DNA from: Fibrobacterota bacterium
GTDB taxonomy: Bacteria; Fibrobacterota; Fibrobacteria; UBA11236
Direction of reading: 5' to 3'
Length of the DNA: 64,000 nucleotides
NCBI GenBank assembly: GCA_028287465.1
Contig: JAQBPO010000050.1
Span: forward strand, 1-64,000
Shown here: in pieces, positions 56,757 through 64,000 of the stretch
Numbering within the stretch: position 1 is the stretch's first letter
Layout of the letters: the number at the start of each line of letters is the position of its first letter
Made by a program: the position numbers and the translations under genes
The notes under the pieces: model-generated
Database searches by the model: none
The model's input: only the letters and a program-made list of their open reading frames with translations
Told to the model about the DNA's origin: nothing

Positions 56757-59609
56757 TCAATTGATGACGATGCGCTTCTTCTTGTAGGTCGGCATGAACC
56801 GGCCGATGATATTGCCGTAGGTGTTGGGAATCGTCCAGGCGTAATGGGGGCCGAACCCGGTTCCGTTCGCATTGGCGGTCTTCACCCAGAAGGTGTTCTG
56901 GGCCTTGTCGTAGAAGCCGAGATCGCAAATCCCGTCACCGTCATAGTCCGCGGGGAAATAGTTCGGCGTCGAGAAGAACCCATTCGCCGCCGCCCATTGC
57001 TGACTTGCCGCGAAACCGTTTCCCTTGGACGGCAGCACCCAGATGGAATTCGAGGGGTAGGAGAAGATCATGAGATCATCCCGCCCGTCCCCGGTGAAGT
57101 CGCCCACGTATGGCGTTACCGTGGTATTGCCGAAGTTTCCGCCCACGAACCACTGTCCGGAACCCGGCGCGCCGAATCCGGTTCCCGTGGAAAGGGTCAC
57201 GAAGAAGGATTGGTCCGACTCGAAGTAACCCAGGTCGGTTTTCCCGTCGCCATTGTAATCCGCGGGATAGTACCGGCTCTTGAGCGAACCGAAACCGTTG
57301 CTGGGGATCCACATGCCGGATCCCGCGGCTCCGAATCCCGACCCGGTGGACAGATTGACATGGAGGGAGTTCCCGCCGATCTGGAAATAAAGCAGATCGT
57401 CCTTCCCGTCGCCGTTGAAATCCCCGACATAATGCTTCCCGGACCTGTCTCCGAAGCCATTGGCGCCGATCCAGGTGGACATCATCCCGAACATGCCGCC
57501 GTTCGATTTGCCCACCTTGAACGCGTTCGTGGGGTCAAGAAATCCCATATCGGTGAGTCCGTCCCCATCGAAGTCGCCGAGGTAGAGGTAATCCCTGTCC
57601 GTCGATTGGAATGCGTCATAGCTCATTCCCCCGATTTTCTGGAATCCCGTTCCCAAGGACCATGCGCCGGATATGCTGGCGGTAGCGGGATCGAAGAACA
57701 GCAAATCATCGTACTTGTCGTTGTTCAGCGAAACCGATGAGGCCTCGAGCCGATCCAAGGCATTGTTGATATTGGTCATCAGGGCCTTGTCGAAAACCAT
57801 ATGGGTGAACCGCTTGTCTTCGATCGTCGTGCGCTTATTGGCCGCATCGAGCTGTCTGCAGGTGTTGTTCAGGTCGCAGTACCCATTGTAGGTGTTCTTC
57901 ATGTAATACGCGAAGTTGAAGGGGGAATTGGCGGAAAGCGAATAATTGGAGGGCCAGGAGTTCGCGGGAACCGGGGCGGTCAAATCCAGTGCCGATTGGA
58001 TCGGGATGAACGTCCCTTTGAATCTCTCCACCGGATTATCGAAATAAAGGGCCTTGAGGGTGGGGATCGATTTGCCCTTAAAGCAACTCCAATACCAGTC
58101 GGCCGAGGATCCGGGATCGAATTCATGGTTCCTCGCCCAAACATGACGTACCGCGAGGCCTGGGGGGTCTATTTCCAGGACTTGTTTCTGCACATTGTTT
58201 CCGGGATAGGAATTCTGGTAAAAGTTCGAGTAAGCGATCGCGGCCGATGGTATGTCTTTCCGGTAGCCCCCCAATTTCTTGAGGTGGGCGTAGAAAGCGT
58301 CATGGCCTTCGGAGGAGGTGCCGACCGCATAAAAATGGTCATACAACAATTGTTGGGATGCCGGCGCCGACATTTGAGCCCAGGAATCTCGAGCCGAGCT
58401 TCCAAGGCCGGTATAGTCGGCGAAAATGGCGATTGTGGTTCCGCTCAGTTCATACATCGCCCGCTGCAAATCGCTCGATACCGATGCTCCTTGCATGGGC
58501 GCATCGATGGATAAAAAGCCTTTTACCCTTCTCCCGAGATCTTGAGGGGGATTCGCTCCGCTGTTCTGAGGCAGGGAGTAAAGCAGCGCCAGCCTCGATA
58601 TGACTCCGCCCATGCTGATTCCGCTCACGATGATCTTCGATTTCGCCCGCTCGGAAAGCCATTCGATGAATTTCAACTCCAGCTTGGCATTGATATGGAT
58701 ATCTCCCGCTCCCTGGGAAAAGTCCAGGAAATAGACGTCGTACCCTTTTGATCTCGGACCCGCTTTGGATAGGAGGTTCTGGTACTGGACGGAATTCGAA
58801 ATGAGCACGTAATCGGGCACCTTCGCATCGCTCGTCAGGCCCCGGCTGTTGGTGGGATCGAAGGCATCTCCGATCACCAATGGCTTGTTGTAAAAATCCC
58901 CATCCGTGAATCCGGGCAGCAAATGCACGATCGCGAAGTACTTCGGGTCCGGGGAGGTGATTTTGGCGAACCATCTCGAATTGTCGATTTTGGTGTCGTT
59001 GTCCTGCCAGACGCCGGAGACCGATTGAAAGGTCTTCGCGGGGATGACCCTGTTTCCATATGGAAGGGATACCGCATATTCACCGGAAACGTATTTTTCC
59101 GAGGCATTGTTGGATGAGACAACCTCCCCGGTGCTTGACCATTGGACTATGGATCCGGCCTTTGTCGGGAAGGGATATGTCGCGTAAGCGCCCACGGAAG
59201 CCTGCAGGGTCAAATCCGGGCAAGTTTCAACCCCGGGGAAGGTGTTGTAATAAACGACGATTTTCTTATTCACTTCGTCGTAGGTCGGAGGCTTGTCGTC
59301 GCTGATGACTGCCGGCATGCATGGATTGGCTTTGGTGATTTCCACCGGGGTCGGGGTTCCCAGTTGCGAGGAGATTTCGCCGTATTTGCTTTGCCGGGTC
59401 TTGACGGAATACCTGATGCCATCCGGGCAGGCGTAATCATACTGGATCAATAGACCTTCGCCGCTTACGAACCCGAATGGTTTTTCCTTCGCGATGGATG
59501 CGATGGTCACCGTGCAAGGGTTGTCCCCGTATCCATACTTGAAGGAGGCGTGGATTACACCATGACTGCACGCCGCAAAAAGCGAGGTGATTTGAAGGAT
59601 TCGGCGCAT
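56757..59609 (-). CDS. Secreted lipase-like hydrolase with FG-GAP repeats
   Basis: 950 residues. ATG 59609 with AAAGGA 8 bases upstream. Signal peptide to ~21 (Ala21-Ser22). N-terminal ~200 residues: a beta-rich Cys-containing domain. Hydrolase ~225-600 with 'KIIVSGISMGGVISRLALLY' (Ser332, GxSxG); Asp and His not placed with certainty. From ~650 to 930: five FG-GAP/VCBS repeats with calcium-binding motifs such as 'LGDFDGDGLTDMG', 'VGDFNGDGKDDLL', 'PADYNGDGKTDLG', 'VGDFTGDGRDDLM', 'PADYDGDGICDLG'. The propeller probably mediates binding. It ends in a basic tail 'KKKRIVIN', different from the other tails. G+C looks lower than in the kinases. Confidence 0.8.
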   Translation of the reverse strand: MRRILQITSLFAACSHGVIHASFKYGYGDNPCTVTIASIAKEKPFGFVSGEGLLIQYDYACPDGIRYSVKTRQSKYGEISSQLGTPTPVEITKANPCMPAVISDDKPPTYDEVNKKIVVYYNTFPGVETCPDLTLQASVGAYATYPFPTKAGSIVQWSSTGEVVSSNNASEKYVSGEYAVSLPYGNRVIPAKTFQSVSGVWQDNDTKIDNSRWFAKITSPDPKYFAIVHLLPGFTDGDFYNKPLVIGDAFDPTNSRGLTSDAKVPDYVLISNSVQYQNLLSKAGPRSKGYDVYFLDFSQGAGDIHINAKLELKFIEWLSERAKSKIIVSGISMGGVISRLALLYSLPQNSGANPPQDLGRRVKGFLSIDAPMQGASVSSDLQRAMYELSGTTIAIFADYTGLGSSARDSWAQMSAPASQQLLYDHFYAVGTSSEGHDAFYAHLKKLGGYRKDIPSAAIAYSNFYQNSYPGNNVQKQVLEIDPPGLAVRHVWARNHEFDPGSSADWYWSCFKGKSIPTLKALYFDNPVERFKGTFIPIQSALDLTAPVPANSWPSNYSLSANSPFNFAYYMKNTYNGYCDLNNTCRQLDAANKRTTIEDKRFTHMVFDKALMTNINNALDRLEASSVSLNNDKYDDLLFFDPATASISGAWSLGTGFQKIGGMSYDAFQSTDRDYLYLGDFDGDGLTDMGFLDPTNAFKVGKSNGGMFGMMSTWIGANGFGDRSGKHYVGDFNGDGKDDLLYFQIGGNSLHVNLSTGSGFGAAGSGMWIPSNGFGSLKSRYYPADYNGDGKTDLGYFESDQSFFVTLSTGTGFGAPGSGQWFVGGNFGNTTVTPYVGDFTGDGRDDLMIFSYPSNSIWVLPSKGNGFAASQQWAAANGFFSTPNYFPADYDGDGICDLGFYDKAQNTFWVKTANANGTGFGPHYAWTIPNTYGNIIGRFMPTYKKKRIVIN

Positions 59610-59658: not shown

Positions 59659-59902
59659 AGTATTACCGGAGTTGATCACGCTTTCTTGGACGTCATCAGT
59701 ATCCCAATCCTGACGCGCTTTTCACCGGGTTCGGCTTTCACGACCCGGAATACCCAAAAAGGGAGCCGTAATAGGGATCGTTGGAGAGTTTGGGCATAAA
59801 CCCCCGGGTCCCGGTTGGAAATACCCGTCGCCCCATTTGTCGGATTCCCGCTCAAAGGTTAGATATTCACCTTCCCGTTCCTTTCCGAATCAGAAAGCCG
59901 AA

Positions 59903-62260
59903 ATGCCCGCCTCCAAACTCGCCTTCCCGGGCCTTATCGCCTCTTGTTTTGCCCTTGTCTCCTGCCTGAACGAACATGGCCTGGTGGATCCCCACGACGA
60001 TAGGAACAATACCTCCCTGGCCGATTTCCACGGCCGCGCCGCGAATGAACACGACTCCGCCCTGAGCTCCAGGCGATTCCTCCAGCTCAGCAATCCCCAG
60101 GTCTCCCTGGTATGGCAATCCATGGGACCGCATATCTTCGGGCACGCGTTCGACAAGAGCACGGTCGGCGTCGCCGCTCCCTACCGATTCTCCCTGGACA
60201 TGACCCATCCACCCCAGGACGGGATCGCCCTGTCCAAGGATCCCGTCATCGGCGCATTCTGGCTGTATTCCGACGGGAACCACAATGGGGTCCTGGATCG
60301 TCTCATCAATCCGGAGCTGGAGGCGCGGGAGCATGCGGTCGATTCGATGAAAGTGCTTTACACCGCCTTCCTGGATTCCCTCCACGCCTACTCACGCCTT
60401 CTTCCCAACCGGGTTCCCGTCAAGGACACCTATTTCGTGGATGCCATGGGCACCATCGTCTATTCGCACGGTTCGATCCTGGATACCGTCTACCTCGGCC
60501 GAAGCCCTCAGGAGGCCGGCATCTATCCGGACCTCCTCTACTGGCGCTACCGCATCATGCGCAATTACAACGAATGGGAGAACTTTTTCGCATTACGCAA
60601 AAAGGCCCAGGAGGAAATCGTGACCTCATGGCAGGTTCCCGGGCATGCCATCGCCCTGGAATACCAGGATTGGCGCAAACTGGTTCCCATCCCAGGCAAG
60701 GAAGCGCAATACCAGAAGTGGCTTGTCCGGGAGACCCTGGCCTACAGCGCCTATCTGTTCGGTCTGCTGCAAGTGCAGCGCGAGGCGGCCAAGAAGGGTT
60801 GGATGGAATATCCATACCAGGGATTCGACACGCCGGGGGAGGATTGGGTCGCGGGAAAGAGCCGCTGGTATTCCGTCCTGTACTTTCCCGATCAGGCCGG
60901 CATGCAGACGGTGCTGGACGCGGAGAAGTCCGGATCCTTCCGGGTCGACGGGATCGAGAAGCTGAAGCGCGGATACAATTTCATGTACTGCGACGAGCAA
61001 TACGACTGCCGGGTGCTGGGCTCCGCGGATTCCATCATCATCGACCTCGGGGAAACGGAGGCGTATTTCAATCCGCCCAGCGCGCCGCTCGCGCTGCCGG
61101 TCCGGGAATTCAAGCCCGTCTCCCTTCCGGATACGTCGTATGCCCGCCTGACCGGCGGGTACGACTACCGCGCCTTCCATCCCATCACCGTGGTATATCG
61201 TAAGGGCGGTCTGTGGGCGGAGGTCTCCGGAAAAGGCCTGTACCGGCTCTCCGCGACGGATGCCCTTCGATTCTATGCCATGGACGGGGCCATGCAATTC
61301 GAGTTCGTTCCGGAAGCGGGAGGCCGCATCCGGAAACTCCTTTTATACGCGGACGATGATCGATGGGTTTCGCCGAAGGCGGATTCCCTGGCCCGGACGG
61401 ACGCGGTGGCGCGGATGGTGGATTCCCTGGCCGCGTTGGGCGGGGTCCCGATCAGCGGCGCGTTCGCGGACGCATTGCCGCTCCGGCTCCAGTACGGAGG
61501 CGATTCGGCCCTGCTCACCGGATCCGACGGCATCCTTAAGTTGGAACTGCCCGGATCGGCCGAGCGGGAGTTCCGTCCCATCGGCGACTCGGAGGCGGTG
61601 AGCGGGGCTTCGCTCGAGCGCATCATCCTGGCGCGTAACCGCAGCGGTACGGTCATCGGGATCCGGTTCGGGAACGCCGGAGGCGAGTCCTTCCTGCCCG
61701 CTTCGGCCTACCGTCCGCGGAGCCCGCTCGAACTTTTCCCCAGGGACGGCCTGGAGCCGGTTCCTCCGGACTCGGCGGGGAAAATCCTTTCGGCCTCCCA
61801 GGGAAGCGGGCGGGATACCCATGTCGGATTGGGCGGGACCAAGCGGTTCGGATGCGCCGAGGACCAGCTGTACCTCCGGCCCGGGGATGGCGGCCTTCTC
61901 GCCTTCAAGGGGCCGGCTTCGGGCGATTCCATATCGGTTTACCAGGCGGGCGGCGCCATGGTGTTCGCCATCGCGGGAGCGGCCGGCAAACGCGTGAGCC
62001 TGGAGCTGAATCTATGCAAGGAACGGAACGGGAAGCCCGGCAGGCTATGGATGGGAATCCGCGGCGGCGGGAATCCCGAAAATCCCAAGGACCGGATCGC
62101 GGAGTCCCGTTGGGTGACCGCCGTGGATTCCGGAACCGTGGCGCGCTGGGACGACATCCCCGTACCGACGGATCCCTATTACCTCGAGATCGGTTCGGGC
62201 GGGACGCCGGAGGCGCCCTTCTTCTTCTCCATGGACGCGTACGTGATTTCCGCCGACTGA
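59903..62260 (+). CDS. Large lipoprotein, unknown function
   Basis: 785 residues. Starting at ATG 59903, the N-terminus 'MPASKLAFPGLIASCFALVSC' is a lipoprotein signal with lipobox LVSC. A region 'GAFWLYSDGNHNGVLDRLINPEL' contains an EF-hand-like DGNHNGVLD loop. The rest alternates helical ('RIMRNYNEWENFFALRKKAQEEI') and beta-rich stretches, without a recognised domain. It ends 28 bases before the ECF sigma gene, so it may be in the same operon. The exact start is uncertain because no strong ribosome site is seen (the frame opens at 59837). Confidence 0.65.
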   Translation: MPASKLAFPGLIASCFALVSCLNEHGLVDPHDDRNNTSLADFHGRAANEHDSALSSRRFLQLSNPQVSLVWQSMGPHIFGHAFDKSTVGVAAPYRFSLDMTHPPQDGIALSKDPVIGAFWLYSDGNHNGVLDRLINPELEAREHAVDSMKVLYTAFLDSLHAYSRLLPNRVPVKDTYFVDAMGTIVYSHGSILDTVYLGRSPQEAGIYPDLLYWRYRIMRNYNEWENFFALRKKAQEEIVTSWQVPGHAIALEYQDWRKLVPIPGKEAQYQKWLVRETLAYSAYLFGLLQVQREAAKKGWMEYPYQGFDTPGEDWVAGKSRWYSVLYFPDQAGMQTVLDAEKSGSFRVDGIEKLKRGYNFMYCDEQYDCRVLGSADSIIIDLGETEAYFNPPSAPLALPVREFKPVSLPDTSYARLTGGYDYRAFHPITVVYRKGGLWAEVSGKGLYRLSATDALRFYAMDGAMQFEFVPEAGGRIRKLLLYADDDRWVSPKADSLARTDAVARMVDSLAALGGVPISGAFADALPLRLQYGGDSALLTGSDGILKLELPGSAEREFRPIGDSEAVSGASLERIILARNRSGTVIGIRFGNAGGESFLPASAYRPRSPLELFPRDGLEPVPPDSAGKILSASQGSGRDTHVGLGGTKRFGCAEDQLYLRPGDGGLLAFKGPASGDSISVYQAGGAMVFAIAGAAGKRVSLELNLCKERNGKPGRLWMGIRGGGNPENPKDRIAESRWVTAVDSGTVARWDDIPVPTDPYYLEIGSGGTPEAPFFFSMDAYVISAD

Positions 62261-62288
62261 ACCGGGCAGCGCAGACCAACCAGACCCT

Positions 62289-62813
62289 ATGCACGCCGAA
62301 CTCGAACCCCTATTCAGGAAATATTCCCCGATGGTCTTCCGGGTCTGCCGCCGTTATATCCATGACCGCGATGAGGCCGAGGATCTGACCCAGGAAACCT
62401 TCCTGAAAATCGATCGCCACCTGGAGTCCTTCCGGGAGGACGCGCAGATGAGTTCCTGGATCTACCGCATCGCGGTCAATACCTGCCTGGACCACTTGCG
62501 CACCCGGAAAAGGCGCGCATCCCTGGCGGAGGAACATTTCGATCCGGCCGTGGAAGCCAACCTGACGGGAGCCGGAGACCGGGAATTGGCCAAGGTCGAC
62601 CTGGACCGGATCCTGGGGGAAATCAAGCCGGAAATCAGGCAGATCCTTTTCCTGACCCTGGCGGAGGGCCTCACCCACAAGGAGGCCGGCGGAGTGGTGG
62701 GGAAAAGCCAGGAGGCCATCGCCAAGATCCTGTCCCGTTTCAAAAAGGGCATGGCTGTCAGGATGGGCGCATTGCCGACGTCTAAGGGAACGACAACCTC
62801 TCGGGACAACTGA
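62289..62813 (+). CDS. ECF-type RNA polymerase sigma factor
   Basis: 174 residues. Region 2: 'LFRKYSPMVFRVCRRYIHDRDEAEDLTQETFLKI' with 'SSWIYRIAVNTCLDHLRTRKRR'. Region 4 helix-turn-helix: 'ILFLTLAEGLTHKEAGGVVGKSQEAIAKILSRFKKGM'. It lacks regions 1 and 3, as expected for ECF factors that are held by an anti-sigma factor and respond to envelope signals. It is followed after 11 bases by a single-pass membrane protein in the anti-sigma position, and then by a secreted caspase-like protease. Confidence 0.9.
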   Translation: MHAELEPLFRKYSPMVFRVCRRYIHDRDEAEDLTQETFLKIDRHLESFREDAQMSSWIYRIAVNTCLDHLRTRKRRASLAEEHFDPAVEANLTGAGDRELAKVDLDRILGEIKPEIRQILFLTLAEGLTHKEAGGVVGKSQEAIAKILSRFKKGMAVRMGALPTSKGTTTSRDN

Positions 62814-62824
62814 AGTTGGGACAT

Positions 62825-63595
62825 ATGGATAAAGACGCATCATTCTGGGAAATCGAGCGGCTTCTCTTGGGGGAAATCCAGGGAGCCGAAGCGGAAGATC
62901 TGCGCCGACGCATCGCGGCGTCTCCGGAACTTTCCGCCTATATGCAACGGGCCCAGGCCCAAGTCCCCTCCCGTTCTTTCCGGGACCTGGAATCGCTTTC
63001 TATGGCCCGGCGCCATGAAGCGTCTCCGTCCCGAACGGAAAACGGTGCCGCTTCGATTTGGTCCGGGATGGGGGAATGGTTCGCGACCCTGGCATCACCC
63101 CGTGCCCGCCCACTCTATGCCTTGGCGATGACCTTGGTATTGGGGATCGGTCTCCTGCGCTTCCTCCCCGGCCTGGGTTCGACCGGACCAGCCCATCGGG
63201 AAAAAGGCGGAGAGGCTTTCGAGGTCCTGTTGCGGATCGGCTCCCATGATCTGGAACCGGGAGAGACCGGGCTGGCCGCCGATTCGGATACCCTTTCCTT
63301 TTCCTACCGCAGCCCTGGGCCCCGCCACGTCCAGGTCTGGTACCAGGAGGACGAAGCCGACCTGCACCCCTTTCCCGGGCGGGAAGGCCCCTCCCTGGCC
63401 TGGCCGGCCGCTACGCGGTGGACGCAACCCCCCCAGAAAATCCTGCTCAAGGGGAATTGGAAAAAGCAATCGGTCTGGGTCGTCGCCTCCGAAGCGGAAT
63501 TGAGCCCGGCCGAGGCCAAGGCGGCCATCCAGGGGGCAAAAGGGGCCGTGCCCCATGCCACGGTCGTCCAATTCCGCATGAAGCATCCGGAGTGA
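62825..63595 (+). CDS. Single-pass membrane protein, probable anti-sigma factor
   Basis: 256 residues from ATG 62825. The N-terminal ~95 residues are cytoplasmic and helical ('DASFWEIERLLLGEIQGAEAEDLRRRIAASPELSAYM'), typical of anti-sigma domains that grip ECF factors; the zinc-finger Cys residues of the ASD-ZAS type are absent. One transmembrane helix at ~97-115. The periplasmic part ('FSYRSPGPRHVQVWYQEDEADLHPF') resembles the DUF4384-like modules found beside caspase-like proteins (recalled, not computed). Function by position and topology only. Confidence 0.6.
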   Translation: MDKDASFWEIERLLLGEIQGAEAEDLRRRIAASPELSAYMQRAQAQVPSRSFRDLESLSMARRHEASPSRTENGAASIWSGMGEWFATLASPRARPLYALAMTLVLGIGLLRFLPGLGSTGPAHREKGGEAFEVLLRIGSHDLEPGETGLAADSDTLSFSYRSPGPRHVQVWYQEDEADLHPFPGREGPSLAWPAATRWTQPPQKILLKGNWKKQSVWVVASEAELSPAEAKAAIQGAKGAVPHATVVQFRMKHPE

Positions 63596-63602
63596 TTCGG
63601 AT

Positions 63603-64000
63603 TTGAAGCCCGGATTCGCATCGTTCCTCCTTTTCCACATCGCCCTGCTGATGCATTCCGCCGCTTTGGGCGACGTGCAACGCATCGCCCTGATCGTAGG
63701 GGTCAACCACGGATTGGAAGAGGATCGCCCCCTGCGCTATGCCGCCCGGGACGCCAAGGAAATGGCGGCGCTGCTCCGGCAGTCCGGTCTCTTCGATAAG
63801 GATCGCATCTACCTGCTGGAAGACGCCTCCCTGGATCGCATCAAGGGGGCGATGGACGAAGTGGCCGGGCGCGTCAAGGAACTGGAGAAATCAGGTTCCC
63901 AGACCCTGGTGGTCTTCTTCTATTCCGGACACGGCGGAGCCGACGCCTTGCATATCCAGGGCAAGAAGTTCTCCCGGGCGGAGATCACCTCCAAGTTCAA
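63603..64000 (+). CDS. Secreted caspase-like (C14) peptidase, 3' end outside window
   Basis: At least 132 residues from a TTG at 63603 (signal-like 'FASFLLFHIALLMHSAALG'), reading through the window end. 'RIALIVGVNHGLEEDRPLRYAARDAKEMAALL' is the first caspase strand and helix, and 'TLVVFFYSGHGGADAL' contains the catalytic His. The catalytic Cys segment lies beyond 64000. Start codon uncertain: only a weak GGAG lies 11 bases upstream. The signal peptide would export a caspase-type protease, unusual since most are cytoplasmic. The stop of the previous gene is 8 bases upstream. Confidence 0.75.
   Translation, partial: MKPGFASFLLFHIALLMHSAALGDVQRIALIVGVNHGLEEDRPLRYAARDAKEMAALLRQSGLFDKDRIYLLEDASLDRIKGAMDEVAGRVKELEKSGSQTLVVFFYSGHGGADALHIQGKKFSRAEITSKF

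Follow-up and report, generated by a model that had tools for sequence, protein, structure and literature searches.

In a 64,000-nt window (positions 1-64000 of the 300-kb contig JAQBPO010000050.1, our G000:C43) from a bacterium of the phylum Fibrobacterota, the last four genes encode a lipoprotein, an extracytoplasmic function (ECF) sigma factor, a membrane anti-sigma factor and a protein that joins a caspase domain to a predicted outer-membrane barrel. The four open reading frames (ORFs) all lie on the + strand (59903-62260, 62289-62813, 62825-63595 and 63603 to past 64000) with intergenic gaps of 28, 11 and 7 nt, and the last gene was read onward past the window end on the same contig. By co-direction and short gaps the sigma factor and the metacaspase fall into one predicted operon. 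The anti-sigma carries a conserved lysine, just outside its membrane helix, that may be the site at which the caspase acts. The features are:

59837-59865, + strand: promoter-like element TTGTCG-N17-TAGATA, 37 nt 5' of the ATG of the lipoprotein gene; consensus-like, which is not evidence of use
59903-62260, + strand: lipoprotein, 785 aa, lipobox LVSC (from the ORF, the lipobox and family comparison)
62289-62813, + strand: ECF sigma factor, 174 aa, regions 2 and 4 (from profile matches)
62825-63595, + strand: membrane anti-sigma factor, 256 aa (from family profiles and an AlphaFold model)
63203-63208, + strand: Lys127-Gly128 of the anti-sigma, candidate caspase cleavage site (from conservation and position in the model)
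63603-64000, + strand, on to contig position 65204: caspase-barrel protein, N-terminal part in the window, 533 aa in full (L006:8603-10204)
63930-63932, + strand: codon of catalytic His110 (motif SGHGG)
64041-64043 of the contig, outside the window, + strand: codon of catalytic Cys147 (motif DACESG)

The sigma, anti-sigma and caspase-barrel proteins

The sigma protein matches sigma-70 region 2 (E=1.1e-21), TIGR02937 (ECF; E=1.9e-26) and, below the Pfam curated cut-off, region 4_2 (E=2.2e-4); as a short protein of 174 aa with only regions 2 and 4 it belongs to the ECF class. At another four-gene locus (L056:6878-7590) the sigma gene is broken into two frames, either by an error in the metagenome-assembled genome or by a real frameshift.

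The neighbouring protein is identified as an anti-sigma factor from family profiles and its AlphaFold model. Searched against the PDB, the family profile matches 3hug (E=1.3e-4), which we take to be RslA although the entry says only conserved membrane protein, and ChrR (E=0.0065), both over the N-terminal part. DdvA, an anti-sigma of Myxococcus, is a further weak PDB match, for which we found no useful paper that would make it a characterised member. Among 38 relatives at E<=0.1, zf-HC2 is found in 8 and DUF4384 in 21. The model (60 sequences, mean pLDDT 84) has four N-terminal helices within residues 7-63, placed in the cytosol, a single transmembrane helix at 92-113, then a linker of low confidence and a well-predicted, DUF4384-like extracytoplasmic beta domain at 133-253; Foldseek searches with it returned nothing at E<=0.001 and weak Ig-like beta-sandwich matches alone. 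With cytosolic helices, a membrane helix and a gene beside that of the sigma factor, the protein has the make-up of a membrane anti-sigma that would bind the sigma factor, and the two almost certainly form a pair.

The 533-aa caspase protein matches Peptidase_C14 (E=1e-16). Its AlphaFold model (pLDDT 90) shows a signal helix at 5-21, the caspase domain at 25-254, a beta-sandwich at 260-338 and, at the C-terminus, eight long strands (363-532) that form an OmpA/Ail-type barrel. Foldseek relates the caspase part to legumain and caspases 3, 6, 7 and 9, and the C-terminal part to Ail, OmpA, NspA and OmpX. Phenylalanine is the usual C-terminal residue of outer-membrane proteins, and it closes 40 of 75 distinct caspase-family ORFs. 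On the model, the protein is very likely anchored in the outer membrane, and the idea of a free secreted protease was rejected on the same model and Foldseek matches. Both catalytic residues, His and Cys, are conserved in 50/50 aligned caspases, so catalysis is under selection. In the metacaspase TbMCA2 the S1 residues are Asp95, Ser156 and Asp211 (PMC4357240); in an alignment to metacaspases these correspond to D50, S108 and D145 of the window's protein, which are kept in 50/50, 46/50 and 50/50 family members, respectively. The protein thus has the caspase fold and His/Cys dyad of C14 metacaspases and orthocaspases and, judged by residues alone, their acidic S1 pocket. The Asp residues in S1 predict a basic P1 residue, consistent with a cut after Lys127.

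A sequence-only reading of this stretch had described four genes on one strand with the same gaps, ECF regions 2 and 4, a single-pass protein with cytosolic helices and an extracytoplasmic beta part, and a secreted C14-type protease with the SGHGG His. The coordinates, profile matches and models bear this out except on one point: the signal helix is present, but the protease is, by prediction, held in the outer membrane rather than freely secreted. That reading also hung on a catalytic Cys beyond the window, and Cys147 appeared once the gene was followed to 65204.

Conservation of the gene order and of the anti-sigma lysine

Sigma and anti-sigma genes lie just upstream of the caspase gene, on the same strand, in 41 of 45 Fibrobacterota loci examined, which were taken from 61 genomes of the class as best matches plus a spread and are not a random draw; of the other four, one is cut at a contig end and three have no sigma/anti-sigma genes. 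The same order is present in Myxococcota, which answers the earlier concern that it might not be conserved in relatives. The window's genome carries six such modules (L006, L008, L009, L010, L011 and L072), and the caspase is mostly single-copy in Fibrobacter. Across 168 genomes of the phylum, 131 have both the caspase and the anti-sigma family, 5 only the caspase, 7 only the anti-sigma and 25 neither (Fisher p=9e-19, a test that ignores relatedness and incomplete genomes). A single-contig genome of the Fibrobacter family holds a caspase remnant with two in-frame stops (G025:C1:513969-514355) and also lacks the anti-sigma family, as if the pair had decayed together. Other caspase modules, at L010, L059, L071 and L079, have as their last gene one that overlaps or abuts the caspase gene and encodes a short lipoprotein from another family.

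Sequence identity to the window's protein is mostly 11-31% within the anti-sigma family, yet Lys127 is invariant in 60 aligned sequences and the next residue is nearly always Gly. In the model, Lys127-Gly128 sits in the flexible low-confidence linker between the membrane helix and the folded beta domain. We surveyed this position in 101 distinct anti-sigma proteins from two phyla. The Lys is present in 92/92 proteins with an adjacent caspase, two of which have Lys-Ala-Gly or Lys-Ser-Gly in place of Lys-Gly, and in seven of nine without one; five of these seven come from genus g11 and have their caspase at another place in the genome. The two proteins that lack it have Arg and Gln instead, come from Anaeromyxobacter and have no caspase neighbour. 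An alignment-free test agrees: KG occurs within 45 aa after the membrane helix in 94/101 proteins versus 25.8 expected from shuffling, at a median distance of 13.5 residues. A second arrangement in the phylum, at L150, L151, L157 and L158, has no sigma gene and places a different type of caspase beside a separate DUF4384 protein. The domains of the first three were confirmed separately (L158 is a close relative of L157), and by inspection those three have no equivalent Lys-Gly.

Promoters and the upstream lipoprotein

The sigma genes of the three-gene Fibrobacter branch have GTAACACTTTT-N11-GTGTT just 5' of their start codon, and exact-pattern scans of 14 genomes for this GTAACA/GTGTT promoter gave 24 matches versus 2 for a reversed control. 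At L211-L220 and other sigma genes of the branch the -10-like GTGTT stands about 9 nt 5' of the start codon, so that the mRNA would be leaderless or nearly so. Most caspase genes of genus g11 sit apart from sigma and anti-sigma, and this ECF-type motif stands immediately 5' of all nine unlinked ones (G045, G057, G103, G104, G105, G106, G108, G110 and G111), as it also does in front of the adjacent caspase gene of G109. Because the unlinked genes keep the motif, the caspase is, as far as a shared promoter shows, in the sigma factor's regulon in that branch, and we regard its membership of the cognate regulon in the Fibrobacter branch as highly likely. The motif also precedes genes for TonB-receptor-plug proteins, for a DUF3450 protein and for FMN reductases, a set that looks like an envelope or uptake response. 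The FMN-reductase/flavodoxin-like genes with the same ECF-type promoter (L225, L227, L231 and L217) come from four Fibrobacter genomes and seemingly from two kinds of locus.

At the window's own operon, the promoter-like element upstream of the lipoprotein recurs as TTG-N20-TAGATA with equal spacing at the two closest four-gene loci (L053 and L054), and may be a housekeeping promoter. The genome (5.8 Mb) has a single copy of GGTTAGATAT, although so few matches fit chance, and the core 10-mer of this sigma70-like element was not above a reversed-pattern control in the same genome (1 versus 3).

The lipoprotein lies 5' of the sigma gene in seven loci from six genomes, every time with the window's caspase subtype. 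Across its family the lipobox Ser-Cys is invariant. The N-terminal domain holds a calcium-loop-like YSDGNHNGVLD, related lipoproteins share YxDxNGNGxLD, and by its sequence this motif may bind calcium. Profile comparison connects this domain with two other groups of lipoproteins: those encoded 5' of sigma in three more families (A8, probability 97%) and those of Myxococcaceae, whose genes come immediately after the caspase gene (A7, probability 90%). Pfam and NCBIfam scans of the window's lipoprotein returned nothing above cut-off, and a PDB profile search with it gave no match. The lipoprotein is probably an outer-membrane partner of the system. The sequence-only reading had cast it as the sensor; given its co-occurrence with this caspase subtype, such a part is at most possible.

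Two neighbours of the operon are on the - strand. On its 5' side, and divergent from it, is a gene for a secreted protein that has an alpha/beta-hydrolase-like motif, GISMGG, and carries FG-GAP repeats at its C-terminus (window 56757-59609). On the 3' side of the caspase gene is a lipobox-bearing astacin metalloprotease with a tectonin domain according to Pfam (contig 65630-67330; L006:10630-12330), and beyond it a 567-aa lipoprotein whose repeats are similar to bulb-type lectin.

A proposed envelope switch and its alternatives

We propose an envelope switch in which an outer-membrane-anchored caspase cleaves the anti-sigma at Lys127/Gly128 and the sigma factor feeds back on the caspase; our confidence in it is evenly poised. 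The ECF sigma factor would be held at the inner membrane by its single-pass anti-sigma, whose DUF4384 domain would sit in the periplasm. The caspase-barrel protein would be exported and anchored in the outer membrane through its C-terminal barrel, so that the protease domain would face the periplasm. Upon a signal, the caspase would cut after Lys127 (Lys127|Gly128) just outside the membrane, in the manner of a site-1 protease, and further proteolysis would free the sigma factor to transcribe its regulon, the caspase gene included, as positive feedback. Cleavage of the anti-sigma by the caspase, taken by itself, is a tentative proposal to which we give slightly less than an even chance. DUF4384 is fused to a caspase domain in Flagellimonas (a weak case, with DUF4384 at E=0.0028) and in 23 cyanobacterial orthocaspases (PMC8283722), which suggests that the two domains touch.

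Several observations weigh against this account. Its main weakness is geometry: the proposed cut is close to the inner membrane and may be out of reach of a protease tethered to the outer one. The Lys-Gly could be the structural start of the beta domain, which begins five residues past Gly128, and two orphan anti-sigmas (L180 and L199) retain it though no caspase adjoins them. Pfam and NCBIfam scans of the window's anti-sigma alone gave no match above cut-off. The zinc motif HxxxCxxC found in its relatives is absent from it; by its sequence the protein is a member of the anti-sigma family outside the zinc-binding (ZAS) subtype. The GTAACA/GTGTT promoter was not found upstream of the window's own operon, where the score is at background. 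Hence, we do not claim autoregulation for this operon.

The strongest alternative is that the caspase is merely an output that processes other envelope proteins, the anti-sigma being inactivated by DegS/RseP-like proteases or by binding and the Lys-Gly being structural. The promoter kept by unlinked caspases is in line with this, as on its own it shows just sigma-to-caspase control, and so are the two orphan anti-sigmas and the nearness of the beta domain. However, the two Anaeromyxobacter proteins that have no caspase beside them have lost the Lys, no Lys-Gly was seen by inspection in the three DUF4384 proteins that are not attached to a membrane anti-sigma, and the basic S1 prediction fits the motif. 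We consider this alternative possible, at well below an even chance. A doubtful elaboration of the envelope switch makes the caspase-barrel both sensor and site-1 protease: correct assembly into the outer membrane, where the lipoprotein might hold it, would keep it off the anti-sigma, and upon failure of outer-membrane assembly the unanchored caspase would get to the inner membrane, cut Lys127|Gly128 and turn the ECF regulon on. If true, caspase cleavage of an anti-sigma would be an old envelope-sensing pathway of Fibrobacterota and Myxococcota.

Non-proteolytic cell-surface signalling, in which the barrel/lipoprotein pair senses something outside and contacts DUF4384, much as TonB-receptor transducers act on FecR-type anti-sigmas, with catalysis secondary, would account for the presence together of barrel, lipoprotein and DUF4384 anti-sigma, for the contact suggested by the caspase fusions elsewhere and for a TonB-receptor plug protein among the regulon candidates. 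It is improbable, as all 50 aligned caspases retain both catalytic residues and neither a TonB-receptor signalling domain nor FecR is present here. The sequence-only reading had offered protease-coupled envelope signalling or a suicide module. The first half stands, in that an ECF/anti-sigma pair and a caspase-fold protease are found together at the envelope. A suicide or abortive-infection module with the caspase as executioner draws on the caspase fold and was rejected as the main explanation: the export signal and barrel place the protease outside the cytoplasm, the distribution is phylum-wide with mostly single copies in Fibrobacter, and the promoter partners are envelope and redox genes (TonB-plug, DUF3450 and FMN reductase), which together make it very unlikely. 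Chance adjacency of unrelated genes is scarcely credible given 41/45 loci, two phyla, co-occurrence and a promoter shared after gene separation, and nothing was found in its favour.

The envelope switch resembles several known systems in part. In type III-E Craspase, Csx29 cuts Csx30, the inhibitor of CASP-sigma (PMC10028731), so that there too an ECF sigma factor is relieved of its inhibitor when a caspase-fold protease cuts the latter. Craspase, however, is cytoplasmic, of the CHAT type, activated by RNA through Cas7-11 and directed at a soluble inhibitor, whereas the window's protease is a C14 enzyme with a signal helix and a barrel; no cas genes were recognised among the ORFs read around the locus, and the CHAT plus Cas7-11 pairing that marks Craspase is absent from them. 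As Csx30 cleavage is independent of any single essential residue (PMC10028731), this precedent does not predict a Lys motif and to that extent also counts against the proposed cut. RseA/DegS/RseP and RsiW proteolysis likewise involves a single-pass anti-sigma with a cytosolic sigma-binding part, and here the candidate cut is just outside the membrane; the site-1 protease would be an operon-encoded, outer-membrane-anchored caspase in place of an inner-membrane serine protease. FecI/FecR/FecA signalling shares an ECF sigma factor, a membrane anti-sigma and an outer-membrane barrel protein, but its barrel is a 22-stranded TonB-dependent transducer, whereas ours is an 8-stranded caspase-barrel, and no FecR domain is present here; neither such a transducer nor a FecR-type anti-sigma appears among the operon's domain and Foldseek matches. 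In the DUF4384 orthocaspases (PMC8283722) caspase and DUF4384 are also associated, but in one polypeptide, whereas here DUF4384 is on the anti-sigma.

Closest of all are the sigma-70/metacaspase operons reported in 2012 by Asplund-Samuelsson et al., in a passage that names Fibrobacter, Anaeromyxobacter, Haliangium, Sorangium and Ralstonia and counts four of the five metacaspases of Myxococcus xanthus in predicted sigma operons (PMC3501461). They share with the window a sigma factor and a metacaspase in one predicted operon; the same passage names no anti-sigma, DUF4384, outer-membrane barrel, lipoprotein, promoter or mechanism. The sequence-only reading knew no system of this layout, which is too strong for the sigma-metacaspase core and holds, as far as that passage goes, for the anti-sigma, barrel and lipoprotein. 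Since such operons have been known since 2012, the window's system is a variant and not wholly new. In the open-licence literature, a scope that leaves the main ECF classification paper outside, we found no description of the anti-sigma, lipoprotein, conserved Lys or promoter of sigma-metacaspase operons, nor, in the same literature, of a caspase fused to an outer-membrane barrel. An existing ECF group may have a caspase context.

The roles of bacterial metacaspases are largely open, and the sigma-metacaspase operon of 2012 came without a mechanism; we found none proposed since in the open-licence literature. New here are one anti-sigma lysine, the caspase-outer-membrane-barrel architecture and a shared promoter that survives gene separation. 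With these, a role of metacaspases as anti-sigma proteases in envelope signalling becomes directly testable, including in Myxococcus xanthus, a bacterium in laboratory culture, with its four reported sigma-metacaspase operons.

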